DNA of 64,000 nt, taken from contig CANKYI010000001.1 in the NCBI GenBank assembly GCA_947488085.1, positions 496,001-560,000 of the forward strand, in the 5' to 3' direction. Each line of letters begins with the position of its first letter. Position 1 is the stretch's first letter. Position numbers and translations under genes: made by a program. Shown piece after piece: positions 3,896 to 44,346 of the stretch. Origin of the DNA: an uncultured Erythrobacter sp. (GTDB taxonomy: Bacteria > Pseudomonadota > Alphaproteobacteria > Sphingomonadales > Sphingomonadaceae). Under the pieces are notes generated by a model that did not search any database, was not told the DNA's origin, and was given only the letters and a program-made list of their open reading frames with translations.

Positions 3896-3922
3896 TCTCA
3901 AATATGGTTGATGTAGAGCGCG

Positions 3923-4180
3923 TTACGCTTCCACATGCTCAGCCAGCACGGTCAAACCATTTTCGCCGACCTCGGCAAAACCGCCGCGCACTTCAATAGT
4001 TTCTGGCTCCGCGCCTTCGGTTTTGTACACCTGAACAGCCCCGTCGCGAATGGTAGACATGAAAGGCGCGTGGCCTTCCAGCACACCGAATTCGCCTTCG
4101 GAACCCGGGACTACGACCATATGGACGTCTTCGGAACGGACCTGTTTGGCCGGTGTTACAAGTTCAAAATGAAGGGGCAT
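3923..4180 (-). CDS. atpC: F1Fo ATP synthase subunit epsilon
   Basis: Epsilon forms part of the central stalk and regulates ATP hydrolysis. The 85-residue protein carries the N-terminal beta-sandwich signature ([47 protein letters not shown]). It ends right after the beta-sandwich and lacks the C-terminal helical hairpin found in E. coli epsilon, as is usual for alphaproteobacterial short forms. Its start lies inside the end of the preceding unknown gene (25-base overlap), an unusual position for atpC. A GGAAAATGAG stretch upstream can serve as ribosome binding site. It is the last gene before the terminator. Confidence 0.95.
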
Positions 4181-4698: not shown

Positions 4699-4707
4699 CG
4701 ATATGCC

Positions 4708-6171
<1,464 letters not shown>

Positions 6172-6182
6172 TTAGCCTTGCT

Positions 6183-7052: not shown

Positions 7053-7065
7053 TTTGTGTTACCTT

Positions 7066-8607
<1,542 letters not shown>

Positions 8608-9162
8608 TTAAGCCTTCATGGCCTGGGAGAGCGAGTTGAGACGGGTGCGGATCGAAGCGTCAATGCGCTCTGATCCAATAGTGACGACAAGCCCGCCCAA
8701 AAGGTCGGGATCAACGTCAGCGGTAAGCATAACTGTGCGCCCCTGACGGGCGGTCAGTTTGGTTTTCAGCGTGGCGATCTGATCATCGCTAAGTGGATGT
8801 GCGCTGGTAACAGTCGCGGTCACTTCGCCGCGTTGAGCAGCGGCAATAGCTTTGAATGCGGCGATCATATCTGGCAATTTGGCGAGACGACGATTGCCCG
8901 CGAGCACACCCAGAAAGCTGGTTGTCAATGGCGCAAGCGACAGATGATCCGCAATCGCGGCAACTGCGCTTGCTTGATCTGTCCGCGACAATTGCGGGTT
9001 GGTCGTCGCGGCGCGCAGATCATCGGAAGCGCTCAGCGCCTCACCCAGAGACTCGAGATCCTTTTCGACAGCGGTGACGCTGCCATTTTCGCTGGCTAGC
9101 TCAAATAAAGCCGAGGCATAACGCCCAGCAAGGCTAGCCTGAATACCGGCGGAAATATCCAC
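8608..9162 (-). CDS. atpH: F1Fo ATP synthase subunit delta
   Basis: Delta joins the peripheral stalk to the top of F1. The 184-residue protein has the [12 protein letters not shown] opening and the C-terminal region ending with a [20 protein letters not shown] signature, both typical of delta/OSCP. I place the start at the GTG at 9162 because AAAAGGAC lies eight bases upstream and the product begins as in homologs; a longer frame reaching 9204 would add 14 unlikely residues. It is the first gene of the operon. Confidence 0.95.
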
Positions 9163-24151: not shown

Positions 24152-24247
24152 CAAAGTGCCCCCTTTGAATTCAGGCTCAATTGATACTGCGCCGCCACGC
24201 GCTTGCAAGCTTGCTCTCACGCGCTGGGCTGGCTAGCACCCGTCGGT

Positions 24248-25121: not shown

Positions 25122-28100
25122 GTGGGACGGATAACTTTAGCGATTTCAGCGGCGTTTGCGGTTTCGGCCGTGTGCCTGACATCGGCATCTGCGCAATCCG
25201 GGTCAGTGCTGACCCGAGACAGTTTTCCCATTGGTGATGCCGAAGGGATTCTGTGTCAGGTGCAAGATCGCAGCACCTCCAACCCAGCCAAACGATCGAT
25301 ATTTGACCGCCGCTGGGCTGTTATCTGTCGCGATAATCCGCAGCCCATTGCTGAGGTCTTCGCTTTTCAAAGCTTCGATGCAGCCGCGCGCGATGCCGTG
25401 CGCGAATTGAGACGTTTCCGGGTACAATGCTCTGGTGCAGGGGGCGGGGTAACTGGTCCCGTTGCCGGCTCGCAAAAGCAGAATTGCAACGTAGCTGATA
25501 GCGAGCTTGCATGGAGTCAGATCACTACCAAATCCGGCGATTTAACCTATTATGCCGAAGGGTTCAGCGCTTATGACGATGCGACTGTTCTGGCGCTGCG
25601 CTCGGTGCTCGACAATGCCATCGCAGATGGCACAATTGATGTCGCATCCACATCTGTTTCCGATCCGCTTTCCTTCGCGCGCGTGCAGGCCGAAACGCTC
25701 AAACCTCAGCAAGCGTTGGCGGAGGGGTATCGTCGCAATTTGGCAGGTGAATATGCGGAAGCTGCGGCCTATTTCGAAACGCTGCAACAGCGGCTCGAAG
25801 ATGAAGATGAGGACTCGATCAATCCCGGCGAATTCTTCGTCAATCGTGCTTTGCAAAAGAGCAATCTAGGCGAATTCAGTATCGCCAACCGCTTGTTTGA
25901 GCAGGCCAATACCTTCGGAAGCGATGATCCAATTACCGCGCGCCTGTTGCGCAATTTTGAGGCAATCCATCTACTCAATCAGGGGTTTGATGAAGCAGCG
26001 ATTGAGCGGCTTTCTCAGGCGCTTCCCGATTCAGCATTGGGTGCAGAAACCATCGATGGTGGGCTGTCGATCACGCAGCCAATCTCGGAACGGCTCAACC
26101 GAGAACAAGCCTCCGGCTTTCTGTTTGGAGTGGTTGATGAGTTGAGCCTCACGGTTGAGGAACGCGCCAAAATTATCGACGCGCAGGCGTTGCAAATTCG
26201 TGGCACTGCGCGGCGGTTGAGCGGCGACCTTGACGGCTCACGCGCCGATCTGGTTAGCGCGTATTCGCAGGCTATCGAAGTGCGCGATGGCCGCGTTACT
26301 TCGATTACGCGGCTGCGTAGTCAGGTGCTCGCCGATTTGGCACTGATCGCGGAAAGTCGCGGCAATACCGCTGACGCAGAAAGCTATCTGCGCAACGGGC
26401 TGGCGCTAGTTCAGGCGCAATATCCCGAACGCCGCGCAGTCAGCGCGCTTGAGGCGCGGCTCGCCGCATTCCTTTTGCGTCAAGGGCGTGAAGGCGATGC
26501 GATGGCGCTGTATAACAAGGTCATCGAGCGCGCGGTCGGGAAACGCAATGCGATCACCGGCTTCGCAAATCAGCTAAATCCCTATTACGAGCTGCTCGCT
26601 GGCAAAGTCAGCAGCGACCCCAAAGCGGCGGAAGACTTTTTCCGCGCGGCACAAGTGTTGATCCGTCCCGGCGTTGCCGAAACGCAGGCATTGCTTGCGC
26701 GTCAGCTCAGCGCGAATTCTGACGAGGCGTCGCGTCTGTTCCGCCAGTCAATCGATCTGGGCCGCGATATTGAACGCTCGCGCATCCGCTTCGAAGCGCT
26801 CGGCAATGGCGAACAAAACGCTGCGACACGTCAGCAGATGGAAGAGCTTTCGTCACAAATCGCAGTGCTGGAACGTGCGCAATTGAGCACTCAGGTGCAG
26901 TTGAATGCTTACCCGCAATATCGCGTCGTATCGCCATCCTCGCTCGAACTCAGCGAGTTCCGCGCTGTTTTGCGCCCTGGCGAAGTCTATGCTCGCCTCG
27001 CTGTGATCAGCGACGATGTCTACATGTTCTACACCGACCAAAACACCGCCAAAGCGTATAAAGTCGACATCACGACTGACGATTTAAGCGAGCAGGTCGA
27101 CATTATTCGTGAGACGATTTCGGTGTTTGATGGCGGGCAATATGTGACCTTCCCATTCGACATCGCATCCGCGCGTGGACTTTACAAAACCCTGTTCGAT
27201 CCAATCGCGAGTGAGATTGCGGCGGCGGAACATGTGATCTTTGAACCCGATGGCGCAATGCTGCGTTTGCCGGTTGATCTGTTGGTAGCAGATGATGCCT
27301 CGGTAACATTGTATGAACAACGCGTCGCACAGCCCAATGGCGATGAATACGATTTCACTGGCGTCAATTGGCTGGGCAAAGGCCGCATGGTCAGCACAGC
27401 TGTCTCTGCCGAGGCCTTCGTTCAATCGCGCAAGACTGAGCTGTCGGCGGCGTCAAAGCAATATCTGGGACTGGGTGAAAACAGCCCGATTGGTGCGGCC
27501 TACCCGGCCTCGTACACCGCCGGAGCCAATCCGGGCGATGAGGATTGCTATTGGCCGGTTGGTCAGTGGAATGATCCGATCAGCTCTTCGGAATTGGTCA
27601 CTGCATCATCCCTGATCGGAGCTAACCGTTCGCAGGTTCTGACCGGCGGCGCGTTCACCGATGATGGGATTAAGGCAAAGGCGGATCTCGATGATTTCCG
27701 CGTGCTGCATTTCGCAACGCATGGTCTGGTCACACCGCCCAATCCAAACTGCCCATCAAAGCCCGCTTTGGTCACATCGTTTGGTAATAGCACCGGCTCT
27801 GATGGCTTGCTCAGCTTTGAAGAGATTTTCGAGCTGGATATCGATGCTGATCTGGTGATCCTGTCGGCATGCGACACAGCGGGCGCGGCCAGTGTTGAGG
27901 CAACGCGCGCGGCGGGTCTGTCCAGCGGTGGCGGCAGCGAACTCGAAGGCCTGGTCCGCGCCTTTATCGGAGCGGGCGGGCGCGCGGTCATGGCGAGCCA
28001 TTGGCCTGCGCCTGATGACTTTGATGCGACAGAGCGATTGATGTCGGAGATGTTCCGGCTCGGTGAGAGTCAGATGATCGGCAATGCGCTGGGTCAATCG

Positions 28101-28244
28101 CGCGAAGTTCTGATGAATGACGCACAAACATCGCACCCCTATTACTGGGCAGGCTTTGCGGTGATCGGCGATGCAGCCCGGCCACTGCTTTCGAATACGG
28201 GTCGCGCTGGCATGCAAGCTTCTACTGGATCGGCGGCAGAATAA
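25122..28244 (+). CDS. Exported TPR and CHAT-domain protease-like protein (first gene of the two-partner secretion unit)
   Basis: The 1040-residue protein has a Sec signal peptide (about residues 1-25, ending ASAQS), a middle of helical repeats of TPR type (about 190-560, with a canonical A-GEYAEAAAYFE-type unit), and a C-terminal CHAT caspase-like domain. The peptidase dyad is intact: His867 in HFATHG and Cys917 in LSACDTAG, followed by GLVRAFIGAGGRAVMASHW and a terminal YYWAGFAVIGD. CHAT proteins cut other proteins after activation; the signal peptide means this one acts outside the cytoplasm, most likely in the periplasm. It starts with GTG at 25122 behind AGGGGGG. The stop overlaps the tpsB start by one base (TAATG), tying it to the secretion genes. 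The substrate is not known; TpsA or TpsB is the obvious guess. Confidence 0.9.
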   Translation: MGRITLAISAAFAVSAVCLTSASAQSGSVLTRDSFPIGDAEGILCQVQDRSTSNPAKRSIFDRRWAVICRDNPQPIAEVFAFQSFDAAARDAVRELRRFRVQCSGAGGGVTGPVAGSQKQNCNVADSELAWSQITTKSGDLTYYAEGFSAYDDATVLALRSVLDNAIADGTIDVASTSVSDPLSFARVQAETLKPQQALAEGYRRNLAGEYAEAAAYFETLQQRLEDEDEDSINPGEFFVNRALQKSNLGEFSIANRLFEQANTFGSDDPITARLLRNFEAIHLLNQGFDEAAIERLSQALPDSALGAETIDGGLSITQPISERLNREQASGFLFGVVDELSLTVEERAKIIDAQALQIRGTARRLSGDLDGSRADLVSAYSQAIEVRDGRVTSITRLRSQVLADLALIAESRGNTADAESYLRNGLALVQAQYPERRAVSALEARLAAFLLRQGREGDAMALYNKVIERAVGKRNAITGFANQLNPYYELLAGKVSSDPKAAEDFFRAAQVLIRPGVAETQALLARQLSANSDEASRLFRQSIDLGRDIERSRIRFEALGNGEQNAATRQQMEELSSQIAVLERAQLSTQVQLNAYPQYRVVSPSSLELSEFRAVLRPGEVYARLAVISDDVYMFYTDQNTAKAYKVDITTDDLSEQVDIIRETISVFDGGQYVTFPFDIASARGLYKTLFDPIASEIAAAEHVIFEPDGAMLRLPVDLLVADDASVTLYEQRVAQPNGDEYDFTGVNWLGKGRMVSTAVSAEAFVQSRKTELSAASKQYLGLGENSPIGAAYPASYTAGANPGDEDCYWPVGQWNDPISSSELVTASSLIGANRSQVLTGGAFTDDGIKAKADLDDFRVLHFATHGLVTPPNPNCPSKPALVTSFGNSTGSDGLLSFEEIFELDIDADLVILSACDTAGAASVEATRAAGLSSGGGSELEGLVRAFIGAGGRAVMASHWPAPDDFDATERLMSEMFRLGESQMIGNALGQSREVLMNDAQTSHPYYWAGFAVIGDAARPLLSNTGRAGMQASTGSAAE

Positions 28245-30055
28245 TGGAAAACACGGTCTTCACTCAACACCGCGTTGCGGGTTTTAAACATGCGTGTCTC
28301 TTCGCTGTGGCAGCAGGTCTTGTCGTGCCAAGCGCTGCCCTTGCGCAAGCAACGGGAGCACCGACCCGCGAGGAATTGAACCGCCCGGGGATCGAGTCTG
28401 AGTTGCGCGGGGATCGCAGCGCTGTTTCTGTCGAGGGGGGAATTGAGCGTGCGCCATGCCCGCTTGCAGCGCCGCAATTCCAGGACCTTACGTTCACATT
28501 CACCGCCGCCGAATTTGCCGGATTGAATGGGATTGATGCTGGCCTATTGGATGCAAGCTGGGCCGACTATGTCGGGCAGGAAATTGCTGTTGCCACTATT
28601 TGTGATATTCGCGACCGAGCAGCGACCGCTTTGCGAGCACAAGGGTATCTGGCCGCAGTGCAAGTGCCGGTGCAGACTATCGGTGAGAGCGGTGCAGTAA
28701 AGTTTGATGTGCTGCTGGCGCGCATTCGTTCTGTTCAAGTGCGCGGCGATGCGGGGCCCTCTGCGGGCACTTTACGCGGGGTACTGGGTAAGCTCGAAGA
28801 ACAGAGTGTTTTCAACGCCAAGGATGCAGAGCGCTATCTGTTGTTAGCGCGCGATATTCCGGGCCTTGATGTGCGGCTGACCTTGCAGCCACTACCAGCC
28901 GAACAAGGCGGGCAGCCTGGCGATGTGGTCGGTGTGTTCGATGTCGTCAATCAACCGATCATCGTCGATGCCAACATTCAGAACTTTGGCTCGCGCGCGA
29001 TTGGTCGCGGCGGATTGCTGGTGCGGTTGCGCGCCAATGGGATTACGGGACTGGGTGATGAAACCATGCTCTCGGCCTATTCTGCCACCGATTTTGATGA
29101 GCAAGCGGTTGTTTCGGGCTATCACGAATTCCGAGTTGGCAATGAAGGGCTGACATTGGGCCTCGCTGGCACTTTGGCATTTACTGAGCCCGACATTCCT
29201 GGGCCAAACTTGTTCGAGACTACGACGTTTATCGGCTCCGCTTATGCTCGTTATCCAGTGATCCGCTCGCAGGCGCAAAACCTGACAATCAGTGCAGGGG
29301 GCGATTTCATCGATCAAAATGTCGATTTCAGCGGCCTCGATTTTAGCGAAGACAAATTGCGTGTTGGTTTTGTCCGCGCCGACTATTGGGGCGCGGATGA
29401 AGACAGCATCAATGGCCGCGGCGGATATTCCGGGGTTGAACCTCGGTTATCCTACCAAGCGTCATTGGAGGTGCGTCAAGGTGTCGATGTCTTCGGCGCA
29501 AGTCCCTCTTGCGGTGTTGGCTTTGTCAATTGCCTGACGCCGGGCTTGATCCCTCCCAGCCGCGTTGACGCGGATACGACCGGGTTTCTTGTTCGCGGAT
29601 CGACGTCTGCGACTTATCGCCCGACGCCCTTGTTTGCTTTGGCGGCCCGCACGCGTTTCCAATATTCGCCGGATCGCTTGCTGGGCTATGAGCAATATTC
29701 AGGCGGTAATTTTACCGTCGGGCGCGGATATGATCCGGGCGCGATCATCGGTGACAAGGGCTTTGGCGCTCAGTTCGAGGCGTCTTACGGCTCGCTCGTC
29801 CCGCCCACACCCAACGGATATGCGGTGCAGCCATTTGTGTTTCTCGACGTTGCGCGTGTTTCGCTCAACGATGCAGCGGACAGCACGGATCGCCTGACGT
29901 CATTAGGCGGGGGCGCGCGTGCAACTTTGGGGCGTCAAGCAGCGCTCGACTTTACCTTGGCGGTGCCGCTTGAGCGCACAACCTTCGCGACGAGCAGGGG
30001 GGATGTCCGCGCGCTGATGTCGCTGACCGTGCAAATTGAGCCGTGGTTCAAATGA
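28244..30055 (+). CDS. TpsB-type outer-membrane transporter (ShlB/FhaC/HecB family)
   Basis: TpsB proteins are Omp85-superfamily barrels that recognise one large partner and pass it across the outer membrane. This 603-residue protein has a signal peptide (about 12-35), a POTRA region (about 75-215) that reads IRDRAATALRAQGYLAAVQVPV and VRSIQVRGDAG-like, and a barrel from about 225 onwards. FTVGRGYDPGAIIGDKG corresponds to the conserved (V)RGY hairpin inserted into the pore. The final residues are WFK rather than a strict terminal Phe. It is translated from an ATG sharing one base with the CHAT gene stop and is followed directly by the giant TpsA gene, which identifies the likely cargo. Confidence 0.92.
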   Translation: MENTVFTQHRVAGFKHACLFAVAAGLVVPSAALAQATGAPTREELNRPGIESELRGDRSAVSVEGGIERAPCPLAAPQFQDLTFTFTAAEFAGLNGIDAGLLDASWADYVGQEIAVATICDIRDRAATALRAQGYLAAVQVPVQTIGESGAVKFDVLLARIRSVQVRGDAGPSAGTLRGVLGKLEEQSVFNAKDAERYLLLARDIPGLDVRLTLQPLPAEQGGQPGDVVGVFDVVNQPIIVDANIQNFGSRAIGRGGLLVRLRANGITGLGDETMLSAYSATDFDEQAVVSGYHEFRVGNEGLTLGLAGTLAFTEPDIPGPNLFETTTFIGSAYARYPVIRSQAQNLTISAGGDFIDQNVDFSGLDFSEDKLRVGFVRADYWGADEDSINGRGGYSGVEPRLSYQASLEVRQGVDVFGASPSCGVGFVNCLTPGLIPPSRVDADTTGFLVRGSTSATYRPTPLFALAARTRFQYSPDRLLGYEQYSGGNFTVGRGYDPGAIIGDKGFGAQFEASYGSLVPPTPNGYAVQPFVFLDVARVSLNDAADSTDRLTSLGGGARATLGRQAALDFTLAVPLERTTFATSRGDVRALMSLTVQIEPWFK

Positions 30056-30075
30056 GCCAGCGGGAGAGAGCAGAG

Positions 30076-33000
30076 ATGACCAAACCAAATCCAACAACCC
30101 GCCTTAATTCGCGCCGCAATTGGATGCGTTCTGGCTCCATGATTGCTGCGGCTGCGGCTCTGGCAGCGGGGGCGAGCATGCCTGCCTATGCGCAGGTTCG
30201 CCCGGGTCTTTCGGGGACTGGTTTGGAAATCACGATGCAGGATCGGCTGCAAATGCGCGGCAATGCGCGTTCGGAGATGGGCCGTGATGTGCGGTCTGAG
30301 ATCCCGAGTATTCGGAGGCAGCCGCAGCCTGTTCCCACGCAGACAATTCCAATTCTGTCTAACGCACAGACCAACAATGTAGCAGTGCCGAACGCATCGC
30401 CCGTGATGGTTCAGCGCGCGCCCACTGTGCCGTCTGTTCCTGTCATTCCCAGCGTCCCCGCGCCCGGAGCTCCGATTGCTCCTGCGCCTGGAACACCGCA
30501 GCAGACGCAATCGGTTGCATCGACGATTACGCCGTTTGTGTTGATCCCGCCGCCGGGAGTTGCAGGTATCAATGTCAATGCAAATGCGCGATTTGATGAT
30601 GTGCAGATCGAGTTCAACCCCGGTGTCGCGGTCGACCAAGTCAATGTTCTAGCCAGCTCAGCGATCATCGATTGGACCACATTTGACCCCGGTGCACCAA
30701 ACACCGAAGTCACGTTTCTGGGTGACGGTCGCAATCTCGAATTCACGTCCAGCCTTTCCGATTACACGGTGCTCAATCGCATCCTCACACCCGATTTTGA
30801 CAGCGCAATTCGGATTGATGGCAATGTGACATCGAGGGTCCTCGATGGTGCGGTCACCGGTGGCAATGTCTGGTTTTATAGTGCGGGCGGTATCGTGGTT
30901 GGGTCAACTGCTACGTTCAACATTGGTAGCTTGCTGCTGAGCACAAGCCTGGTCGACGAATCCAGCGTGGCGAGCGGGGGCACCGATCTTAACTTCGTAG
31001 GCTCGCCCGTCGATAGCGCCATTCGCATCGAAAGCGGCGCGTCGATTCAGGCGAACAACAACAATTCCTACGTTGCCTTGGTCGCGCCGCGGATCGAGCA
31101 ACACGGAAGCGTTACCGTCAACGGCTCGGTAGCTTATGTCGCTGCGGAAGAAGCGGAAATGACGATCCGCAATAACCTGTTCGACATCTCAGTGAATGTC
31201 GGCAGCGAAGACGACAACGGCATTGTTCATACAGGAACCACCACGGGCTCATCCTCACTTGGCGTCACCGATGAGCAGGCGATCTATTTCGTTTCGGTTC
31301 CCAAAAATGACGCGATCACCATGCTGGTTAGTGGGAGTGTCGGGTACGCCTCTGCGCAGACTGCCGGCATATCCAATGGTGAGATTATCCTTACGACCGG
31401 CAATCGTGTTGAACGCACGGAAGCCGATGTTTTGGTCCGCAATCCCAATGGCAGTTCATCGCTTGTTGAGGTGTCTTCCAACACAGTCGACAAGACGGTT
31501 GATGGAAACCAAGCGGGCAGCATCGTAATCGAAGATGTTGCCTTCCGCAGTGATGTTACCGCGTTCGCTGAAGAAAGCCTCACTATTCAGGCAGGCGCTA
31601 CAACCGCAAATGATACGATCGAAGCCAGAGGTCTGTCCGGAGACCGGGTCGACCTTGACCTGACTGCGGGGCAGAGAATTGATCTTTCGGTTACGCGGCA
31701 AGGGCGGATCGATATTGGTGGCTCGTTGACGCTGACTGCTGGCGATGGCGATGGGATTGGCGGCGATATTGCGGTTTCGATTGGCCAGACCGCTGGTTCT
31801 GTGTCGGCACTTGATGCCTTGAATATCGACGATAGCCTCACGCTGGATGCGAGCGCGCGCGGGCGCGACGATACCGCCAATTTCCGCAACAATGGTGGCA
31901 ATGGCATTGGCGAAGACGGCGTGGCGGGCGATGTCACTTTTAACGTCATCAATGATGCGTCCGTTTCTATATCAAACGGTTTGGATATTGATACGTCCGC
32001 GAATGGTGGTCTTGGCGAAAATCAAAGCGGTTCGGCAAGCGCTGGTGCGGTTGATATCAACCTTTCAGGTATCTCATTCAGTGTGGGTGGAACCATCGAT
32101 GTTGATGCAGATGCAAACGGTGCGGGAACACTGGCAACGAACGTGTCAGGCGGACGGCAAGGCAGCGATTCGTCGAGCAGCGATGTTACCATCAACCTTA
32201 GCGACGGATCGGCTGATTGGGGTGGGCTTTCTGTTGACATGGGGGCAACGGCAAGCGGTGGCTCGGACAACACAATTGTTCAGTCAAACGATGCGAGTGT
32301 TGGCACCTTCGCGCTTAATGCAACCGGAGGCTTCCACACGATAGGATCTCTGGACGTTTCAGGATTTGCCAGTGCCACAAATTCATTTGATGGCGGACCA
32401 GACCCTATTGACGGTCAGATCAGTCGTGGCAGCGGTACAATCGCCGTGTCAAACTTCGACACAACTCTGGACATTTCTGGCAGCGCATCGCTGTTCTTTG
32501 GAACAAGCGGTAATGTCAGCGCGCCGGTCAGCAATACGATAAGCGTTTCAGTTACGGATACGGGATTTGGCACCGGATCAGGATTGACCATTGGCGGCGG
32601 ATTGTCGCTGGGCACGAACGATTCCGGCGGCAACGCTGGTTCCGTTCAGCAAGGCGGCACCATTTCCGTGTCGGCCGACAATGGCCTGCTTTCGTTAGGC
32701 AGTATCTCATTCTCAGCGAGCGCTTCGGCTGACGAGTTTCTGATCAGTGAAACGTCGGCCACATCGTATGTGGGGGGCGATATATCACTCACCGCAACCA
32801 ACAGCGCGATTTTCAATGTGAACGGCTTTGGCTCGATCTCATCCAGTGGATCAGGAACCTCTGGCGTGACTGGTGAAGAAGCTGGCGGTGGTCAAGGCGG
32901 CACAATCACCCTGCTCGCCGATGATGCTTCGATGAGTTTTGGTGGATCTTTATTCCTCTCCGCCGATGGCTTCGCTTTGTCAGGCAGCAATGATAGCGGT

Positions 33001-36000: not shown

Positions 36001-39000
36001 ATCGCCGCTGCAGGAGTCACGCTGGAAGCAAGCAGTATAGCAATTGGCGACACCACCTCCACTGGTGGCTTTGTCGCGCTGACGTCAACTGTGGGCGATC
36101 TCTCAGCTGGTGCGGCCACATCTGAAACTTTGGGCGTGATCATCACCTCCGCCGGAGCATTGAATGTCGGTGACCTGACCTCCGATGGTTCCACCAGTGT
36201 TGACGCGGTCGGCGATGCTACCTTGGGTGATGTAAATGCCGGTGGTTCAGGTTCAATTGACGTAGGCGGGAATTTGACCGCAGGCGCATTGTTCGCTGGT
36301 ACGACGAGTCCGGGCCTAGGGATCACCGTCGGCGGCGATGCCGATATTGTGAGCGCGGACGCCAACGGACTGCTCAGTCTCGACATCACTGGCGCATTGA
36401 CCGGCGGCGCCTTTACTGGGGCCAGCGTGACTACGATTAATGCTGCATCCGTCGATATCGATAGCGTGGAGTCGCTTAGTCAGGCAGTTACGATTATTGC
36501 CACTGGTGCGGCAATTGTTGGCGACGCTTCGTCCAGCTTCAACACCACGATCACCGGCACATCGGTCAATCTTGACACCGGCAATATCGGAAGGTCGCTT
36601 GTACTGAATGCCACCGATGGCAGCATTACAGGCAATGGTGCGATCACCGTTGTCGGCACTATCAACCTCGATGCAACACAAGATATCACGTTCGGCGCAC
36701 TGACGGGCGGAGCAGCGTTTAACGCTGATGCTGGCGGCAACATTACGTCGACGGGAACCAACATTACAGGCACAGCCGTTACACTGAATGCGGGCGGCGA
36801 CGTTACTGCCAACAATGTGGTCGCTACCCTCAACAACGCAGCGAACAACATTACCATCGATGCAGGCGGCGCAGTGAATCTCGCCACTGCGACGGCCGCG
36901 AACAATATTCTGATCACGGCCGATACAGTGGACATCGGCACCACGGACGCACGTGGTACTTTCACAGATATTGATGCGACCGGCGCGGTTTCGATCGACA
37001 ATGCGATTAGCGCAGGCAACACAAACATTGTGGGCGCAACGGTCGCACTGGTCGACAGTGACGTCGGTGGCACCCTCAACGCGAATGCAACGAATGGTGA
37101 TGTCGACGTAACAGGTGCCCTCGCAGCGAACGCCGTTATCAACCTTGATGCCTCAGAAAATGTTACTGTTTCACCGGGAGCATCGCTGACTGCAGGCGGC
37201 TCCATCCTCATAGACGCAATTGGCAATGCGACCTTTACAGGGGCAGATATCACCGGTGCTGCGATCACGATGGATGTCGGCGGTGATCTGGTCGGCGACA
37301 CACTGGAAGCTTTCCTGAACAACGCGGCAAACAATGTTGATCTGACAGTTGGCGGAGCGCTGAACGTCGACAACATTTCGGCTGCTAACAACGTACTGAT
37401 CACGGCCGATACGGTTGATATTGGCGCTGTAGATGCGCGCGCAACCTTCGTATCCATCAGTGCGGCAGGTGCGGTCTCCGTTGGTAGCGCAATGAGCTTT
37501 GGCGATACGACGATCGTCGGGACAAGCGTTACTTTGGGTAGCGGCGATGCGGGTAGCGCAATCAACCTCACTGCGACTGATGGTGATGTCGATGTAACAG
37601 GCGATCTTGTTGCGAATGCGGTCATCAACCTCGATGCATCAGAAAATGTGATTGTTTCACCGGGCGCATCGCTGACGGCAGGCGGCGCAATCGTCACAAA
37701 TGCACTAAACGATGTGATCTTTACCGGGGCGGATCTCACAGGTGCCGCGATTACGATGGATGTCGGCGGTGATCTGGTCGGCGATTCACTAGAAGCATTC
37801 TTGAATAACGCGGCCAACAATGTTGATTTGGACGTTGGCGGAACGCTGAATGTCGAGAGCATATCGGCTGCAAATAACGTCCTCATCACTGCTGGTTCAG
37901 TAGATATTGGCACCGCAGATGCAGGCGGGACCTTCATCTCCATCGACGCAATTGGCGCGGTATCGGTCGGCAATGCAATGAGCACCGGTGATACGACGAT
38001 CAATGGCGCATCTGTCAATCTTGATGCAGGCGATGTTGGAAGCAATCTCAACGTAACGTCAGACACGGGCGACATCACTGGGCTCGGTACGATCTTGGTC
38101 AGCGGCGTCGCCAATCTCAATTCGGCTGCCAACATGGCAATTGGCAGTATTGAAGCGAACACCGCTTCGTTGATCGCTGCGGGCGATCTGCGCTTTAACG
38201 GGGTGACGTCGCCCAACGCCATCACCTTATCAGCGGTCAACGGCACCATCGGCGCCACGACACCGGGCTTGGGTGATATTGATAGCGGCGGAGCTGTCGA
38301 TCTGACGGCTCAGGCCATTGATCTGGGCGATGTCGACAGCGACACCTCGATCAACGCTTTTGCATCGGTGGGCGATGCCAGCTTTGGCGATCTGACCGCT
38401 GGCACCTTCATAAGCATCGACGCACAGCTCAATCCAATTGTGCGCAGCGTAACGAGCGGCGGTAACGTCGACCTGACCGGCGCGTCGATCTCCCTTGATG
38501 GAGGCGATGTGGGCGGCAATTTGACGCTGGATGCACGCTCGGGCGATATCAACCTTGCCTTTGACGGCACTGATCAATTGTTGGTTGGCGGTTCGGCGGT
38601 CTTCACTGCGCCCGGCGATATGAACGTCACGCACACAAACAACACAGCGGGTACGACCTCCGTTGATATTGGTTCATCGACCCGAGTGGATATTGGCGGA
38701 TCGTTCACCTCAGAAGCGGGCTCAATCATCGACTCCACTGGTGAGCTGTTGATCTTCGCTGGCGGCGATATCGTCGCGAATGACCTGCGGACTGAGCCGG
38801 GCATGTTGTTGAGATCAAGCGGCGATGTCGTGTTGAACAACGCCACCGCAACTGGCCCACAAGGTGTCAGCAATTTCCGCGGGATCATAGTCGAGGCTGG
38901 CTTTGAGGATTTCGGTAGTATCTCCGGATTCAATCCGGGTTCCAATGCGATCATCACCGGCGATGTCACTTCCTATGCCGATATTCGGGTTACCGCTGGT

Positions 39001-42000
39001 AGCAACGTCATCTTTGAGACCGGATCAAACACTGCGGCGGACAATGCGCTGATCGTAAATTCCGGTGATGACATCATTGTCGAAACTGGCGCTCTGCTTT
39101 CGGCTGCGAACAATCCGACCGACTTGATCAACGCGGCCAACCCGTTTGACAGCGGCCCCAATTTGACGCTGAATGCTGGTGGTGAAGACAACCTGTTGTC
39201 GCTCGGCGGAAGCCCGATTGCCTCATTGGTGATTGATGGCGCTCTGGACGCTAATGATGGGGCGATTGTGTTGACCGGCAATGCGATTGAGGGGCTGGAT
39301 AGCACCTTGATCGCAGGCTCAATCAGCGCTGATATCGTCGATGCGCCTCCGGGCGATATGGGTCTGAGTGATGATGACGGCCTGTTGTCGAAACCGTGCG
39401 TTGAAGGGATCATCTGCCTTGGCGATATGACCGCGACGAACCGGATCGAGATTGGTCAGAATTCCAATAACGACGTGATCCAACTGTTTGTTCGGCAGGC
39501 AGTCATCAATGCAACCGATATCCTGATCACTACGCGCAATGACATCGTGATGGGCACAAATGGGATCGACACGATTTTGAACGCCACGGGCACGTTCAGC
39601 GCGACCAGTAACACCGGCAATGTTGTGCTGCTTGATGCGTCGATTTCGGCGAATCAGATCCTCCTGAGCGCTGCGAACAGCGTGGTTGGTACAGGCGTTC
39701 TGACCAGCGCCAATGATATCGGCATTGATGTCGGATCATCGATCAGCGTTGGCGGGATCATCACTGGCGGCGAGTTGACCACCGTCGCAGAAGTCGGCGG
39801 CCCAATCGAAGGGTTCTACACCGTCCCCGGCGACTTCACCGCAGGTATTTTCAGCCAAGGCTCGACCAGCATTGATTTGAACACAGGTGGTTCAATCGAC
39901 ATCGGCCAGGCGGACTCTCCTGACAGCATTTTCCTTGCAGCAGATGGAGATGCTTTCCTTGGCTTCGCTAGTGTTCCTGGCGAAATTCAAATCGATGCGG
40001 GCAGCGTCGGATTTGATGATCTGGACGCTGGCGGCTCAATCTTCCTGAGCGCCAATGGTGGTTCCATCACCTCTTCGCAATTCTCTTCGGCTGTTGCGGG
40101 CGGTGATATCGATTTGTTCGCAGATGGTGATATCGATGTCGGCGATTTGAACGCTGGCAACTCAGTCAATGCTGATGGTGCTTCTGTCGCCGTGGGATCG
40201 GTTTTCGGATCCAGTATCACATTGACCAGCGCATCGGACATCCTGTTTGATCTACTCGATTCTGGCAGCGCCATAATGCTTGATGCGTCGAATGGCGTTA
40301 TTGCCGCCAACTTTGGTGAAGGCGACATTGTCAGCGCCGGCGGTGTCACTCTTGATGCCGAAGAAATCGCTATTGGCGATGTAAGCGCTAATGGCGCAGT
40401 CAACGCAGCGGCGACCGCTGGCACGGCCAGCTTTGGCAATGTGTCTACGACTGCCCTCGGTTCTGCAATCAATCTGTCAGCCGCAGGTGTCAGCAGTAAT
40501 GTCCAAGCAGGCACACTAACCACCAATAGCGGCGATATCCTGATCAGTGCGGCGCAAGACATCGCGCTGACCGGAGGGGCGACTTCTGCTGGTACGCCAA
40601 CAGCGGGCAGCATCGGCTTGCTCGCAGGCGGCGATGTCAGTGCAACTGGCGCGCTTTCGGCGGGCGAAGATGTGGCCATTCGCGCTCTTGGCAATGCAGC
40701 CTTGGGCACCGTGACCGCAGGCGATGATGTGACTGTCGATGCCGATGGCTCGATCAGTCTGGATAGCGCGACCGCGAATGCTGGCGGGATCGACCTGTTC
40801 TCGATTGTCTTTGATGAAGCGAATGCAGGTCAAGCCGGTACGATACTGTTTGCAAGCGAGGCAAACGCTGGCTCGAACATTGCTCTCACCAGTGGGACAG
40901 ATGTGACAGCAACCGGTACGCTCAATGCGGACAATGCGATCACGGTGACTGCGACGGGCACACCCAACATCAACAATGCGATCAGCGGCGGCGATACGTC
41001 GATCACCGGTTCCTCGGTCACGTTCAACAGCGGCATGGTCGGCGGCGATCTCACGCTCAACGCGACGACAGGCGATATTGACGGCAATGGTGCGGTCAGC
41101 GTTGCAGGCGCAATTGATTTTGATGCGAGCGGCAATGTCGGTTTTGGCGCTCTCGACGCACAAGGCGGTAGCTTTACCGTCGATGCGGGCGGTGACATCG
41201 CCTTTATCAGCGCGACCAGCACTGACTTCATCACCTTGAATGCAGGCGGCGCCGTGCAGGGCGGCGACCTGAACGCGACCAACGCCTTGAGTGTGGATGC
41301 TGACTTCATTGCCCTTGGTGATGTGATTGCGGATCAGATCAGCCTGACCAGTGCGACCGATATCCTTTTCAACCTGATCCAATCGCCCAATGCGATTTCG
41401 CTGTCAGCGGTGAATGGCTTGATCGGTCAGAACACGGGCTCCGGAGACATTGAGACCGATGATGATGTGACGCTGCTGGCGGAATTCATCAATGTGGGTC
41501 AGATTGACGCAGGCGGCGATGTGACCGCCACGGCGACCGGCACGCCGGACGCAGGTGGAATGGGTGGCAATACTGGCCCTGTCATTATCGGCGGCGGCGC
41601 TGGACTTGATGTCGCGCTCACAACCGCGAATATCACTTCTGGCGGTGCGGTTGATCTGACCGCTGTGAATGGTCCGGTAAGCACTGGCGATGTCGATGCA
41701 GCGAGCAATTTGTCGATCGAAGGCGCAGGGATCACCACAGGTGACTTGATCGCGCGCGCTGTCTTTGACGCAGGCGTGATGCAGCTCACATCGACTGGCG
41801 ATCTGTCGATTGGCACAGCCAGCTCGGTCGGGCGCTTCACTGCGACTGCAGATGGTGATGTGGACTATGTGAGCATCACCAACACTCGCAACACCGCGAG
41901 CATTGTGGCGGACGGTTCAATCTCTGGCGGCGCAATCGCAGTCACGCAACAAAGCACGGGCGGCACTTCAGGCAGCAATCTTATTTCACTGACAGCTGGT

Positions 42001-44346
42001 GGTGATATCACTTTGAGTGGGGACACAAGTGCGCAAAGCGGTGTCTCTTTGATCGCAGGCGGCGCGATTACTGCGCAAAACATCACCGCAACAACTGCAG
42101 GCGGCGATGTGATCGCACGTGGCGGCGGCGCGGTAAACGTCGGTGATGTCAGTGGTGGATCAAGCAACACGACACAAGTTGAAGGCACATCAGTTAACAC
42201 CGGCTCTGTGACCGGCGGCGGCATCACGCTTAGGGCGACGGACGGCTCGGTTGTGGCAGGCGGCACTGTCACGGGCGCAGAAGCAACCCGCCTGTTCGCC
42301 ACGCAGGACATTGATGCAGGCGATGTGGAAGGCGGTAATACGCTTACCCTGAGCGCGGACGGCAATGTTAGCTTCGCCGATATTGCAGCGGTGATCGGTG
42401 ATCTGACCGTCACAGCTGGTGGCAATATCACTGGCAATTCAGCGAACCGTCAGAGCACTATTGTTGGCGGCATCGGCCTGAGGCTGGACGCGGACGGCGA
42501 TGTTGATGTGGCGACGATCACTTCTGCGACCAGCGCCAATGTCTCAGGTGTCGCGATCAACTTCGATACGGCAAACACGCAAACGTCATTCAGCGCGGTG
42601 GGTGATACAATTGACTTTGGCACTGTCGGAGCGGGCACTGATGCTACGTTGATCGCTGATAATGGCGACCTAACCGGCTCCGTCGAAGCCGGTGGCACGG
42701 CCGATATCACAGCCGGCAACGGCTCGATTGAAATGGCGAACTTGACCGCAATGGATGCCGATTTGTTGGCCAGCGGTGCGATTGAGATTGGCGATGCTGA
42801 CGTTATCGCTTTGCTCGATGCCGAAGGCGCATCAATCGATATCGCATCAAGCGGCGGTTTGGTCGTCGATGTGACTGCAACCGATGGAGCGGTTTCGGTA
42901 GTGACCGACGGCGATCTAGATGTTTTGTCAGCTTCTGCGACCGAGAACGTCACGCTTGCGAGCATGAATGGTGCTGCCGCTATTACGCAGGCGTCTGGCG
43001 ACGACATCACAATCACTGCCGAACAGAACGTGGCGATTACCGACGACGTTGATGCAGTGGGCGCTCTCAATATTGACGCGGGCGGTCTGGCGCGGATCGA
43101 GGGCTCCGCAGTGGGTGAGACAATCAGGATTGCCGCTGCGAATGTTGATATTCTGACAGATGGCCAATTGGGTGATGCAACACGCACAAGCACGATTGAA
43201 TTCGAAACATTCCGCGATGTGGTCGTCGGCGGAACAGGTACGGACAATGAAGGCGGGCTTGGAGCGTTCTTCGAAGTCGACAACACCGAATTTCAACAAA
43301 TCCATTCTGGCGGCGATATTCAATTTATCGCGCGCAGCGATGGCAGCTCGCTTGACGGATTGATTACGGTCAACACGCTGGATGTTACTGCGGGCGATGG
43401 CTCGTCTGCGACAGAGCAGAATATTGGTCAGGCAGGTGCGTTGATCCTTCAATCCGAAGGCGACATTGAAATCAGAGGCGATGCCACGATCAATGGTGCC
43501 ACGTTTGATACCGGTTTTGTCGCAGATGCACTCAATTTGGTGCGGCTCGACACAGCGAATGGCGGTATATTCCTGCTTGATGCGAACGAAGGGCTTGCCG
43601 GTACAATCGAGATTTTTGCGACTGACTTTATCGCGGCAACCGACACGGCCTTTAACGACATTCAAGGGCTGAGCGTGGCGGATGTCGATCTGCGGTTGGA
43701 GAATAGTGACGGGGTGGATCGCCCCAATGGCGTGATCCGCGCAGATTCGCTGATCATCGAGACTATCGCCAGCCAGGTGTTCATTCAAAACACCGTGCCC
43801 GGGATCGATTTCGATCAACGCCGCGGCTTTAACGTGAACGCCATTACTATCAGCACCGCGGGCAGCACCGCTCAGCCGATTGTAATCAACGGCACCGTCG
43901 CTGGCGTCACCGGAATTGATGCGATTGCGCTGGTCGATCTCGGCAGCGTGTTCGCGGCTGCATCGACGATCAATGGTTGCTTGATTGCAAACCCGGCATC
44001 GTGCGCGCCGGTGACTGTCCCTCCAGGACCAACGCCAACACCAACACCAACACCAACGGACCCAGGCTCAGGTGAAATTGGCACTGGCGGTTCAGAGGTT
44101 GAAATTCGCGACCTTATTGAGGAGGAGGTGGACGATGAAGGGGGCTTGGTCGCCGGATTGGTCGAAGGCAATCTCATCACGATCAATCCTGACAATGAGT
44201 TCAACGATGATCCGTTGATTGATGATCCGGTGACGGGCGCAGGTAATGAAGACCTGTGGATCAGCGATGAGGAAGAGGAAGAGGAAGAGGAAGAGGAAGA
44301 GGAAGAGGAAGAGGAAGAGGAAGAAGACGAAGACGAAGAGGAATAA
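30076..44346 (+). CDS. Giant TpsA-type secreted beta-helix protein (filamentous haemagglutinin-like)
   Basis: About 4756 residues, likely the cargo of the upstream TpsB. After a long signal peptide (ending PAYAQ) and a Pro-rich stretch comes a TPS-like secretion domain (about residues 150-370), where the usual NPNGI motif is replaced by YSAGGIVVG. The rest is short Gly/Asn/Asp/Ala/Thr-rich beta repeats, a GG-G-rich block (about 930-1630) and three copies of a 160-residue unit (about 2197-2679). Cysteines are rare; I see pairs at 3108/3114 and 4635/4643. A Pro-Thr repeat leads to an unusual all-acidic tail of 26 residues. ATG at 30076 has GGGAGAG upstream; an ATG at 30052 overlaps the tpsB stop and is the alternative. 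Probably a surface adhesin or fibre. No toxin domain is visible. Confidence 0.85.
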   Translation: MTKPNPTTRLNSRRNWMRSGSMIAAAAALAAGASMPAYAQVRPGLSGTGLEITMQDRLQMRGNARSEMGRDVRSEIPSIRRQPQPVPTQTIPILSNAQTNNVAVPNASPVMVQRAPTVPSVPVIPSVPAPGAPIAPAPGTPQQTQSVASTITPFVLIPPPGVAGINVNANARFDDVQIEFNPGVAVDQVNVLASSAIIDWTTFDPGAPNTEVTFLGDGRNLEFTSSLSDYTVLNRILTPDFDSAIRIDGNVTSRVLDGAVTGGNVWFYSAGGIVVGSTATFNIGSLLLSTSLVDESSVASGGTDLNFVGSPVDSAIRIESGASIQANNNNSYVALVAPRIEQHGSVTVNGSVAYVAAEEAEMTIRNNLFDISVNVGSEDDNGIVHTGTTTGSSSLGVTDEQAIYFVSVPKNDAITMLVSGSVGYASAQTAGISNGEIILTTGNRVERTEADVLVRNPNGSSSLVEVSSNTVDKTVDGNQAGSIVIEDVAFRSDVTAFAEESLTIQAGATTANDTIEARGLSGDRVDLDLTAGQRIDLSVTRQGRIDIGGSLTLTAGDGDGIGGDIAVSIGQTAGSVSALDALNIDDSLTLDASARGRDDTANFRNNGGNGIGEDGVAGDVTFNVINDASVSISNGLDIDTSANGGLGENQSGSASAGAVDINLSGISFSVGGTIDVDADANGAGTLATNVSGGRQGSDSSSSDVTINLSDGSADWGGLSVDMGATASGGSDNTIVQSNDASVGTFALNATGGFHTIGSLDVSGFASATNSFDGGPDPIDGQISRGSGTIAVSNFDTTLDISGSASLFFGTSGNVSAPVSNTISVSVTDTGFGTGSGLTIGGGLSLGTNDSGGNAGSVQQGGTISVSADNGLLSLGSISFSASASADEFLISETSATSYVGGDISLTATNSAIFNVNGFGSISSSGSGTSGVTGEEAGGGQGGTITLLADDASMSFGGSLFLSADGFALSGSNDSGDAASGTGGIVRITVQGPGGSLNFQDLNAGTDGTFAFDGEVFNSFFEGNGSAGLGGLTEFNILGGTLTADDIVVSSSGFGGPAGEIAVGDINPVNGLSDVGSGGDGQGGEVTFNIDGGDATVTNLTVASDGVGGRGASGRIEDDTNAGDGGDGTGGTATLNAISGSLTVTDTLSVEALGNEDRFGGEGGFSRGTIGGDGGSSTGGNAVFNLDGTATINADTVVVSTEAFGGEGGSSRESFNGDPDQGGGAGGDGVGGNAVFNDIAGNLSFNSLTVNSSGTGGEGGNSTGASTSTAAGNGGAGGNGTGGSALITLSQDDAVSKDYSVISQGIGGDGGTGNMGGLGGNGTAGVAQLLVDNVSVVFGTLVIDATATGGDASFNDGIGINDGSDGGDATGGDASLVVRGADGSFVANSVTSITAGATGGNAAGASSSSIDAVAGGLGGAGGSGMGGSATIAIQDNASVILDADTIGINADSFGGTGGDGGGNFGGGEAGNGGNGGDGTGGIVGIIAVDGADIEVQAVSVPFELSSSGTGGAGGSGGGVNTVNGAGDGGVGGTGTGGSPTLSATGATITIQEVTLIAQGFGASAGGAGFNSGIAVGDAVAGVGGGGNGGTPLIEAVEGSPGIINLGDTTIIANGTSGPGLTNGAGAGGQVTIRDVSTDPDGLISFGNLTIDATGDPGTDAGRISFSSDSGPITVDGNLIAASAGNMSFSMSGDGQLVVTGSAVLTASNIITVRRLDQTSTLDAIDLQGSFTSVVNGGRFIALNDGDINAGGPVSITADEISYDSIFSPSTVTLTATAGDIVGASTGIIVASAVNDAINLSATGNVIFGTLNNVDGDPVTRDGNIDIDAGGDIIGVSAISGQTIDFDAGGLVMVDNVDTSEINTGTVTIDAGEIDLGTLNARFISNLTSDTGDISIDTISGLTDVGLDSAADVIIGTAETDSISVDALAGNITIGSLTTTGAVADIRLNAGGDVSYTNIDGSRLVTIDGDTITGGDIIAAAGVTLEASSIAIGDTTSTGGFVALTSTVGDLSAGAATSETLGVIITSAGALNVGDLTSDGSTSVDAVGDATLGDVNAGGSGSIDVGGNLTAGALFAGTTSPGLGITVGGDADIVSADANGLLSLDITGALTGGAFTGASVTTINAASVDIDSVESLSQAVTIIATGAAIVGDASSSFNTTITGTSVNLDTGNIGRSLVLNATDGSITGNGAITVVGTINLDATQDITFGALTGGAAFNADAGGNITSTGTNITGTAVTLNAGGDVTANNVVATLNNAANNITIDAGGAVNLATATAANNILITADTVDIGTTDARGTFTDIDATGAVSIDNAISAGNTNIVGATVALVDSDVGGTLNANATNGDVDVTGALAANAVINLDASENVTVSPGASLTAGGSILIDAIGNATFTGADITGAAITMDVGGDLVGDTLEAFLNNAANNVDLTVGGALNVDNISAANNVLITADTVDIGAVDARATFVSISAAGAVSVGSAMSFGDTTIVGTSVTLGSGDAGSAINLTATDGDVDVTGDLVANAVINLDASENVIVSPGASLTAGGAIVTNALNDVIFTGADLTGAAITMDVGGDLVGDSLEAFLNNAANNVDLDVGGTLNVESISAANNVLITAGSVDIGTADAGGTFISIDAIGAVSVGNAMSTGDTTINGASVNLDAGDVGSNLNVTSDTGDITGLGTILVSGVANLNSAANMAIGSIEANTASLIAAGDLRFNGVTSPNAITLSAVNGTIGATTPGLGDIDSGGAVDLTAQAIDLGDVDSDTSINAFASVGDASFGDLTAGTFISIDAQLNPIVRSVTSGGNVDLTGASISLDGGDVGGNLTLDARSGDINLAFDGTDQLLVGGSAVFTAPGDMNVTHTNNTAGTTSVDIGSSTRVDIGGSFTSEAGSIIDSTGELLIFAGGDIVANDLRTEPGMLLRSSGDVVLNNATATGPQGVSNFRGIIVEAGFEDFGSISGFNPGSNAIITGDVTSYADIRVTAGSNVIFETGSNTAADNALIVNSGDDIIVETGALLSAANNPTDLINAANPFDSGPNLTLNAGGEDNLLSLGGSPIASLVIDGALDANDGAIVLTGNAIEGLDSTLIAGSISADIVDAPPGDMGLSDDDGLLSKPCVEGIICLGDMTATNRIEIGQNSNNDVIQLFVRQAVINATDILITTRNDIVMGTNGIDTILNATGTFSATSNTGNVVLLDASISANQILLSAANSVVGTGVLTSANDIGIDVGSSISVGGIITGGELTTVAEVGGPIEGFYTVPGDFTAGIFSQGSTSIDLNTGGSIDIGQADSPDSIFLAADGDAFLGFASVPGEIQIDAGSVGFDDLDAGGSIFLSANGGSITSSQFSSAVAGGDIDLFADGDIDVGDLNAGNSVNADGASVAVGSVFGSSITLTSASDILFDLLDSGSAIMLDASNGVIAANFGEGDIVSAGGVTLDAEEIAIGDVSANGAVNAAATAGTASFGNVSTTALGSAINLSAAGVSSNVQAGTLTTNSGDILISAAQDIALTGGATSAGTPTAGSIGLLAGGDVSATGALSAGEDVAIRALGNAALGTVTAGDDVTVDADGSISLDSATANAGGIDLFSIVFDEANAGQAGTILFASEANAGSNIALTSGTDVTATGTLNADNAITVTATGTPNINNAISGGDTSITGSSVTFNSGMVGGDLTLNATTGDIDGNGAVSVAGAIDFDASGNVGFGALDAQGGSFTVDAGGDIAFISATSTDFITLNAGGAVQGGDLNATNALSVDADFIALGDVIADQISLTSATDILFNLIQSPNAISLSAVNGLIGQNTGSGDIETDDDVTLLAEFINVGQIDAGGDVTATATGTPDAGGMGGNTGPVIIGGGAGLDVALTTANITSGGAVDLTAVNGPVSTGDVDAASNLSIEGAGITTGDLIARAVFDAGVMQLTSTGDLSIGTASSVGRFTATADGDVDYVSITNTRNTASIVADGSISGGAIAVTQQSTGGTSGSNLISLTAGGDITLSGDTSAQSGVSLIAGGAITAQNITATTAGGDVIARGGGAVNVGDVSGGSSNTTQVEGTSVNTGSVTGGGITLRATDGSVVAGGTVTGAEATRLFATQDIDAGDVEGGNTLTLSADGNVSFADIAAVIGDLTVTAGGNITGNSANRQSTIVGGIGLRLDADGDVDVATITSATSANVSGVAINFDTANTQTSFSAVGDTIDFGTVGAGTDATLIADNGDLTGSVEAGGTADITAGNGSIEMANLTAMDADLLASGAIEIGDADVIALLDAEGASIDIASSGGLVVDVTATDGAVSVVTDGDLDVLSASATENVTLASMNGAAAITQASGDDITITAEQNVAITDDVDAVGALNIDAGGLARIEGSAVGETIRIAAANVDILTDGQLGDATRTSTIEFETFRDVVVGGTGTDNEGGLGAFFEVDNTEFQQIHSGGDIQFIARSDGSSLDGLITVNTLDVTAGDGSSATEQNIGQAGALILQSEGDIEIRGDATINGATFDTGFVADALNLVRLDTANGGIFLLDANEGLAGTIEIFATDFIAATDTAFNDIQGLSVADVDLRLENSDGVDRPNGVIRADSLIIETIASQVFIQNTVPGIDFDQRRGFNVNAITISTAGSTAQPIVINGTVAGVTGIDAIALVDLGSVFAAASTINGCLIANPASCAPVTVPPGPTPTPTPTPTDPGSGEIGTGGSEVEIRDLIEEEVDDEGGLVAGLVEGNLITINPDNEFNDDPLIDDPVTGAGNEDLWISDEEEEEEEEEEEEEEEEEEEDEDEEE
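36664..38112 (+). repeat. Three tandem copies of a 477-486 bp unit inside tpsA
   Basis: Copies begin at 36664, 37141 and 37627, each starting near the same AACCT/C-GATGC text and keeping the reading frame (159 and 162 codons). Copies two and three are the closest: they share LDASENV-VSPGASLTAGG, GAAITMDVGGDLVGD-LEAFLNNAANNVDL and SAANNVLITA. A degenerate fourth start lies near 38113. This looks like recent internal duplication of a beta-helix segment. Confidence 0.75.
44029..44058 (+). repeat. Five CCAACN hexamers coding for a Pro-Thr linker
   Basis: CCAACG and CCAACA alternate in five in-frame copies, coding for a Pro-Thr repeat just after the C-terminal cysteine pair of TpsA. Such linkers are common between a secreted repeat region and a terminal anchor or tail. 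In-frame slippage would change its length without breaking the frame. Confidence 0.8.
44269..44322 (+). repeat. Nine tandem GAGGAA hexamers coding for a poly-glutamate tail
   Basis: Nine perfect GAGGAA units lie near the 3' end of tpsA, followed by GAA/GAC codons and the stop, giving 26 acidic residues in a row at the C-terminus. Perfect hexamer arrays are prone to slipped-strand length change, and here any change stays in frame. Confidence 0.9.

Follow-up and report, generated by a model that had tools for sequence, protein, structure and literature searches.

Among described systems, the closest to the locus analysed here are the type Vb, or two-partner, secretion systems FhaB/FhaC, HMW1 and HxuA. 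In HMW1, a disulphide-bonded C-terminal anchor locks the C-terminus of TpsA in the TpsB pore with its end in the periplasm, and the same kind of anchor is expected in HxuA, according to a 2017 review (PMC5422565). The same review describes how CdrA of Pseudomonas aeruginosa has a periplasmic tail that is cut by LapG under second-messenger control, and how SphB1 of Bordetella, an autotransporter of the subtilisin type, has its gene apart from the fhaB-fhaC locus (PMC5422565). It holds that genes for TpsA-maturing proteases do not lie with the TPS genes (PMC5422565).

The locus described here lies in a window of 64 kb from the genome of a marine, Erythrobacter-like bacterium (the whole stretch of DNA analysed, G000:C1:496001-560000 in genome coordinates). 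Like FhaB/FhaC, HMW1 and HxuA, it encodes a ShlB-type TpsB and a TpsA with a signal-like start and a TPS domain, and it has a C-terminal Cys pair of the kind described for HMW1 and expected for HxuA (PMC5422565). Unlike all three, it has a protease gene in the unit and a conserved signature in the TpsA tail, and about 150 residues separate the signal peptide from the TPS domain in the window TpsA. With CdrA-LapG it would have in common a TpsA with a periplasmic tail and a periplasmic protease; the protease is, however, a CHAT protein and not LapG, its gene lies within the unit, and the neighbour is a class III cyclase, whereas CdrA is under c-di-GMP control. With SphB1-FhaB it would share the maturation and release of a giant TpsA, but here the candidate protease gene sits inside the unit.

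TPR-CHAT proteases are known from cytoplasmic systems, Craspase among others. The protein found here resembles them in its TPR region and in a CHAT domain with a His-Cys dyad, and differs in its signal-like start, in six conserved Cys residues outside the active site and in its tie to an outer-membrane pore. Our literature search, which left most subscription journals outside its coverage, found nothing linking the CHAT domain to two-partner secretion, CHASE2 or hemagglutinin.

Results

The CHAT-tpsB-tpsA locus

All three open reading frames are where an earlier note on this DNA had placed them (Table 1), and its claim that the CHAT gene and tpsB share one base is borne out by the sequence TAATG. 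The start of tpsA, which it had put at or 20 bases after the tpsB stop, has three candidates: GTG 30043, ATG 30052, which forms an ATGA overlap with the tpsB stop, and ATG 30076, which lies 20 bases past that stop. Either ATG is more likely than the GTG. Because the genes overlap, CHAT, tpsB and tpsA are probably co-transcribed. A terminator scan returned 11 sites against a mean of 18.5 in shuffled sequence and, with fewer sites than the shuffled mean, therefore says little. Upstream of the unit lie a TIR-domain gene on the opposite strand and a nitroreductase gene, and tpsA is followed by a cysteinyl-tRNA synthetase gene. The TIR-domain protein (23144-24220, minus strand, slightly upstream of the unit) matches PF13676 with an E-value of 3.7e-21 and has weak PADLOC matches to Thoeris ThsB and other TIR models; an ORF that resembles its gene by eye is present in the nearest named relative (L003), which is 96% identical over CHAT.

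Table 1. Features of the CHAT-tpsB-tpsA locus, in window coordinates
Feature	Position	Strand	Remarks
CHAT-domain protease gene	25122..28244	+	1040 aa; TPR region and CHAT domain
Putative Sec-type signal peptide of CHAT	25122..25193	+	Residues 1-24; ASA-Q site by eye
CHAT catalytic domain	27168..28172	+	Residues 683-1017
Catalytic His867 codon	27720..27722	+	HFATHG; 82/82 aligned proteins
Catalytic Cys917 codon	27870..27872	+	LSACDT; 82/82 aligned proteins
tpsB, ShlB/FhaC-type outer-membrane transporter	28244..30055	+	603 aa; PF03865 match
tpsA, giant secreted protein (presumed from sequence)	30043..44346	+	4767 aa counted from GTG 30043
TPS secretion domain of TpsA	30655..31281	+	PF05860; conserved in 73 aligned TpsA N-termini
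Cys pair, presumed anchor loop	43978..44004	+	CLIANPASC; Cys 122 and 114 residues from end
Signature, presumed site read by CHAT	44221..44259	+	DDPVTGAGNEDLW; profile hit G000:C1:540173-540259
Glu-rich TpsA tail	44269..44343	+	6-base tandem repeat GAGGAA, 12 copies

A probably exported candidate protease with an intact dyad

The first gene encodes a protein with a clear CHAT domain (Pfam PF12770, E 1.8e-48) and a TPR region that scores under the cut-off of TPR_12 (E 0.00018). The TPR stretch of a family profile finds the TPRs of kinesin light chain as its best match in the PDB (E 8e-8), where the profile retrieves at E<=1 only TPR or similar repeat proteins (30 sequences) and no CHAT protein. 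Nothing places the protein in the LapG family: Pfam reports CHAT and weak TPR only, and the one NCBIfam match, to XerD with an E-value of 0.08, is meaningless.

CHAT proteins belong to the caspase-like clan. The earlier note had named Cys917 as the catalytic residue, and this is confirmed; it is invariant, together with His867, throughout an alignment of 82 CHATs (the window copy, a second copy from the same genome and 80 relatives). With its dyad intact the protein is a candidate protease, and the invariance of the dyad means that catalysis probably matters. Cys45, Cys69, Cys103 and Cys122 of the N-terminal domain are kept in 81/82 of these proteins, the exception being a partial one, and Cys809 and Cys877 in all 82; six conserved Cys residues outside the active site fit an oxidising compartment. 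To the eye, the protein and its aligned relatives begin with Sec-like signal peptides, so the CHAT protease looks exported, as had been claimed. It is no oddity of this locus in that respect, since such starts, again judged by eye, are common across the order. Three distant CHAT relatives (L173, L088 and L240) appear instead to have a lipobox-like start. At E 0.001, neither the window CHAT, the second CHAT nor TpsB matches any PADLOC model, and a reading as a known anti-phage defence system was dropped.

TpsB and TpsA

The other two proteins have the hallmarks of type Vb secretion: a ShlB-type TpsB (PF03865, E 2e-14; POTRA_2 at E 0.0014, under its cut-off) and a TpsA with a TPS domain near its N-terminus. 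Whole TpsA matched nothing in Pfam or NCBIfam; the TPS domain emerged from a sub-segment (residues 171-470) as a PF05860 match with an E-value of 2.1e-7, its 31.5 bits being slightly below the curated cut-off of 33.5. The spacing between signal peptide and TPS domain is shorter in several relatives than in the window protein.

Further along tpsA, a 300-nt stretch occurs in two copies (36865-37650, 486 nt apart, 65% identical), a duplication that reads as repeat growth of the passenger, and the GAGGAA array at the end of the gene may vary in length through slippage. The CHAT-linked TpsA of genome G086 (L169, L170) occupies an open frame of 7555 aa. Over the last 248 residues of the window TpsA only Glu-rich low-complexity models matched, and no toxin domain. 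Contact-dependent inhibition (CdiBAI) finds no support, as there is no C-terminal toxin match and the next gene encodes the cysteinyl-tRNA synthetase rather than an immunity protein.

Conservation of the unit and its five-gene form

We kept 80 of the 117 relatives found. TpsB follows CHAT on the same strand in 77 of them, and the other three are uninformative, their contigs ending 107, 441 and 1893 bases past CHAT. Such conservation puts the CHAT-TPS arrangement far beyond chance. The earlier note's expectation of a conserved trio holds for the linkage and fails for the number of genes: TpsB comes directly after CHAT in only 13/77, while in 64/77, mostly five genes and no trio, it lies 2.6-3.7 kb after CHAT. 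In every one of these 64 the gap holds homologues of a CHASE2-cyclase and of a small exported protein, and TpsA comes next in 63, the last locus being cut by a contig end. TpsA also follows in the 13 direct loci, where no CHASE2-cyclase homologue was found within the fetched stretch. Both genes are likewise missing between CHAT and tpsB of the window trio. About 115 kb away, the window genome carries a second unit, arranged as tpsB-tpsA-CHAT-CHASE2-cyclase-small protein. The CHASE2-cyclase domains were identified in two such cyclases, and that of the second unit matches Pycsar cyclases in PADLOC over its catalytic domain. The small exported protein was suspected from its look to be a FecR homologue, an idea dropped as it has no Pfam, NCBIfam or PDB match.

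Because most units carry a CHASE2-cyclase and a small protein, signalling needs to be weighed as a role alongside maturation. The TpsA tail would then act as a ligand from which CHAT learns if TpsA is still anchored or has been lost, active CHAT would cut the small protein or the CHASE2-cyclase, and the cyclase would make the message. The presence of both homologues in all five-gene loci speaks for this, as do two loci (L244, L245) at which CHAT, small protein and CHASE2 stay with TPS even though the CHAT is distant (about 145-150 bits), and a Niveispirillum plasmid on which a CHASE2-like gene, recognised by eye, follows TpsA-CHAT. At the 13 direct loci and the window locus, however, CHAT persists without the two genes between it and tpsB; what is missing could come from a second unit elsewhere in the genome. 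We consider this role unlikely and favour the reading that CHAT cuts the TpsA tail.

Other CHASE2 genes lie near TPS genes of the window genome. Divergent from the second TPS unit is a gene for a CHASE2-SpoIIE phosphatase (L085, G000:C1:386000-399000; 3829-8918, minus strand), adjoined by ORFs that look anti-anti-sigma-like, metallo-hydrolase-like and kinase-like by eye, a possible partner-switching set. The third ShlB gene of the genome (G000:C1:171146, minus strand) is divergent to a CHASE2 gene at 174750 (plus strand), and similar divergent pairs occur in G105, G004, G071, G080 and G108 among others.

CHAT and ShlB genes across the order

Among 147 genomes of the order that are >=95% complete, CHAT is present in 56 (92 matches) and ShlB in 71 (108 matches, excluding two second pieces of the same genes). 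ShlB lies within 30 kb on the same strand of 47/92 CHAT matches, in 38 genomes and three layouts, where rough arithmetic would put proximity by chance at a few percent. Seen from the transporter, 47/108 ShlB matches are CHAT-linked and 61/108 have no CHAT nearby. We read 19 CHAT loci at which ShlB was absent, remote, weak or oddly placed, 15 of them from the 45 CHATs without ShlB nearby. Five reach more than 200 bits with the window CHAT or the second CHAT, and each of these adjoins TpsA or TpsB; the other 14 stay below 150 bits, and none has TpsA or TpsB within the fetched stretch. The latter look like a separate family, in which several members have starts that resemble signal peptides by eye. 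Five TPS-linked CHATs are exceptions to the split by score: those of G098 and G048, at 145-150 bits, and three of 764-821 aa (one of G128, two of G054) that do not match the window CHAT.

CHAT might also act on TpsB, or serve as a TPR export chaperone, with the signature bound by TpsB. Its gene overlaps tpsB by 1 or 4 bases in 10/13 direct loci, and at one locus (L208, L246) TpsB and CHAT stand together with no TpsA nearby. Yet TpsB without CHAT nearby is common, as the counts above show, the 11 complete TpsA at CHAT-free loci lack the signature described below, and the invariant dyad points to catalysis. Such a role is quite improbable beside that of a protease acting on the TpsA tail.

A signature at the end of CHAT-linked TpsA

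The C-terminal parts of CHAT-linked TpsA proteins share one build: first a Cys pair, then a linker that varies, and lastly the signature PV[TAS]GxG[ND]xxL. Examples are DDPVTGAGNEDLW in the window, EPVAGSGNPALM and DDPVASGGDIALY, with 6-33 residues after the 7-residue core; the flanking columns are far less conserved. We compared 45 complete-ended TpsA, all of them linked to CHATs that reach about 200 bits or more (the lowest, L192, has 216 bits in one comparison and 196 in another). Left out were L101, which runs into a contig end, L102, which has a distant CHAT and lacks the signature, L205-L208, the Caballeronia locus, which also lacks it, and L066, which is the L099 locus again. A Cys pair of the form N-x-C-x(4-8)-C, with its first Cys 70-244 residues from the C-terminus, occurs in 44/45; the TpsA of L114 has the signature and lacks the pair. 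A wide regular expression for the signature also captures 44/45, missing only L036, in which EPVTASGNDDLW has one extra residue, and a stricter one captures 39/45. The wide expression was widened with the data in view; an initial version had captured 2/4 new linked loci, and a later fixed one captures 14/18 linked loci that were first read at the stage when it was fixed or afterwards.

As a comparison we used 11 unlinked TpsA with a complete end, which came from 36 unlinked regions as those found by the TPS-domain model with a stop (three more extended past the end of the stretch, and 22 regions were without a hit). The Cys pair is present in one of the 11 (L151) and the wide expression in none; nor does it occur in any of 7529 other ORF tails from the fetched loci, many of which are not real genes.

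A 29-residue profile was built from 36 tails, and a search of the six frames of the 147 genomes with it returned 39 hits at E<=1e-3, spread over 35 genomes, and 12 others at E>0.02. The 39 pair one to one with CHAT genes, each lying on the same strand as a different one and at most 20 kb from it, and they sit in open frames of 1907-7555 residues. The 91 genomes without CHAT have no hit at E<=1e-3. Since 35 of the 39 belong to the tails from which the profile was built and the other four (G131, G074, G086 and G141) had previously been read, the test speaks for absence elsewhere and not for new positives. Counted by protease, 39 of the 48 TPS-linked CHATs identified in the order (the 47 above and that of G113) have a hit, three have a related tail (G020, G113 and one of G114) and six have neither: those of G098, where TpsA is cut by a contig end, and G048, one of G141, with no TpsA found, one of G128 and two of G054.

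A profile of the TPS domain places 41 loci above 200 bits and the next-best domains below 92 bits. The signature is present in 39 of the 41; the two without it are both additional TpsA genes of G126, of which one stops immediately behind a Cys pair and the other has no pair. This would suit a mere inherited mark of one TpsA clade, unrelated to CHAT. But the wide expression also fits two TpsA whose TPS domains score weakly, those of G020 (43 bits) and G113 (88 bits), as well as that of the second G114 locus, with no TPS hit at E<=1e-10, and the TpsA of Sphingomonas parapaucimobilis (L087), and a locus in another order of the class (L239, below) has a tail that is related by eye. In addition, the unlinked TpsA lack the signature, and the profile found no TpsA in the 147 genomes that keeps it after loss of CHAT. 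A bare clade mark is therefore a poor bet, though TpsA clade, CHAT and signature largely coincide, and common descent explains part of the link. With that reservation, the case made in the earlier note for CHAT as a third component is strengthened by a tail signature whose profile finds, in the 147 genomes, only TpsA adjoining CHAT, and we keep to a link between signature and protease.

What CHAT would do at the signature is less apparent from the tails. No scissile bond stands out in the TpsA tail, and a conserved cut site upstream of the signature was rejected, the loose pattern found in 21/44 tails searched being too weak. A short C-terminal signature with a cognate enzyme encoded next door is the pattern of C-terminal sorting systems, and a sortase-like CHAT could attach the end of TpsA to an acceptor at the surface or in the periplasm. 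In the rows printed, however, no hydrophobic segment with a basic end follows the signature, and the Cys loop would already supply an anchor, which makes ligation improbable beside cleavage.

Discussion

Taken together, the data suggest two-partner secretion with a dedicated third partner: a periplasmic CHAT protease that cuts the tail of TpsA and thereby matures or releases it, a counterpart of LapG for CdrA with its gene in the operon, a reading to which we give an even chance. TpsA would be exported and threaded through TpsB until the C-terminal Cys pair, closed into a disulphide loop, halts at the pore and leaves the last ~60-240 residues hanging in the periplasm. From the Cys pair and the descriptions of HMW1 and CdrA, the signature should lie in the same compartment as CHAT, so that a periplasmic position of the tail is suggested by analogy. 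There, the exported, Cys-rich TPR-CHAT protease would dock on or near PV[TAS]GxG[ND]xxL and cut the tail, which would mature TpsA or free it from the surface. Where the unit has five genes, the inner-membrane CHASE2-cyclase and the small exported protein may control the protease or report its state to the inside. The model predicts the same phenotype whether CHAT loses Cys917 or TpsA loses its signature.

A bolder proposal, which we hold a little less firmly, is that a periplasmic caspase-like CHAT encoded in the operon recognises a C-terminal address on its own TpsA, that the transmembrane CHASE2-cyclase of the five-gene units converts the condition of the adhesin into a cyclic-nucleotide signal, and that CHAT subfamilies pair with distinct tails (PVTGxGN..L in sphingomonads, EW[SK]RVR[ST][RQ]P in Caballeronia and G438, G492 and G495) in a widespread, undescribed form of type Vb secretion. 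If true, this would give the cell a route to sense or shed a giant surface fibre, and caspase-like CHAT proteases a role outside the cytoplasm. What makes the system worth pursuing is a candidate protease built into a TPS unit across an order of common environmental bacteria, together with its catalytic cysteine and a candidate recognition site of about 13 residues.

How far does the arrangement reach beyond the order? In a phylum survey, 87/396 genomes have CHAT at E<=1e-15, and at least nine of the 75 CHAT genomes outside the order have a CHAT match near a ShlB match (G438, G492, G495, G179, G197, G168, G177 and G334, with G182 divergent). On a plasmid of Caballeronia sp. M1242, CHAT, ShlB and a hemagglutinin follow one another in this order inside a type VI secretion cluster (L093), and in Sphingomonas parapaucimobilis a hemagglutinin-CHAT pair lies near type VI genes. 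The plasmid CHAT loci of Pseudosulfitobacter, Azospirillum and Bradyrhizobium have no TPS gene annotated in the stretch viewed. Three cyanobacterial CHAT loci (L090, L091 and L094), all from plasmids, were set aside for the same reason within the stretch shown.

Though TPS-linked, Niveispirillum, Caballeronia and all nine extra-order genomes except one lack the signature. The exception is G334 (L239), from another order of the class, in which the genes run TpsB-TpsA-CHAT and TpsA ends in DPVVTGTGSEEIW; this tail fails the regular expressions and its relation to the signature is judged by eye. The tail of G177 is at most faintly alike, and G179, G197, G168 and G182 have no such tail among the ORFs printed. 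In Caballeronia, G438, G492 and G495, the CHAT-linked TpsA have another ending, EW[SK]RVR[ST][RQ]P, and a Cys pair sits at their extreme C-terminus. Different conserved tails beside different CHATs make it seem that other CHAT subfamilies are paired with other TpsA ends.

An apparent TpsA-CHAT fusion in an open frame of 2442 aa (L240) was resolved by third-position GC into two genes in different frames. The three loci with CHATs of 764-821 aa (L229, L230 and L231) form a second type of trio, in the order CHAT-TpsA-TpsB; their TpsA have Cys among the last residues, with GPYGL or GPLAL shortly before.
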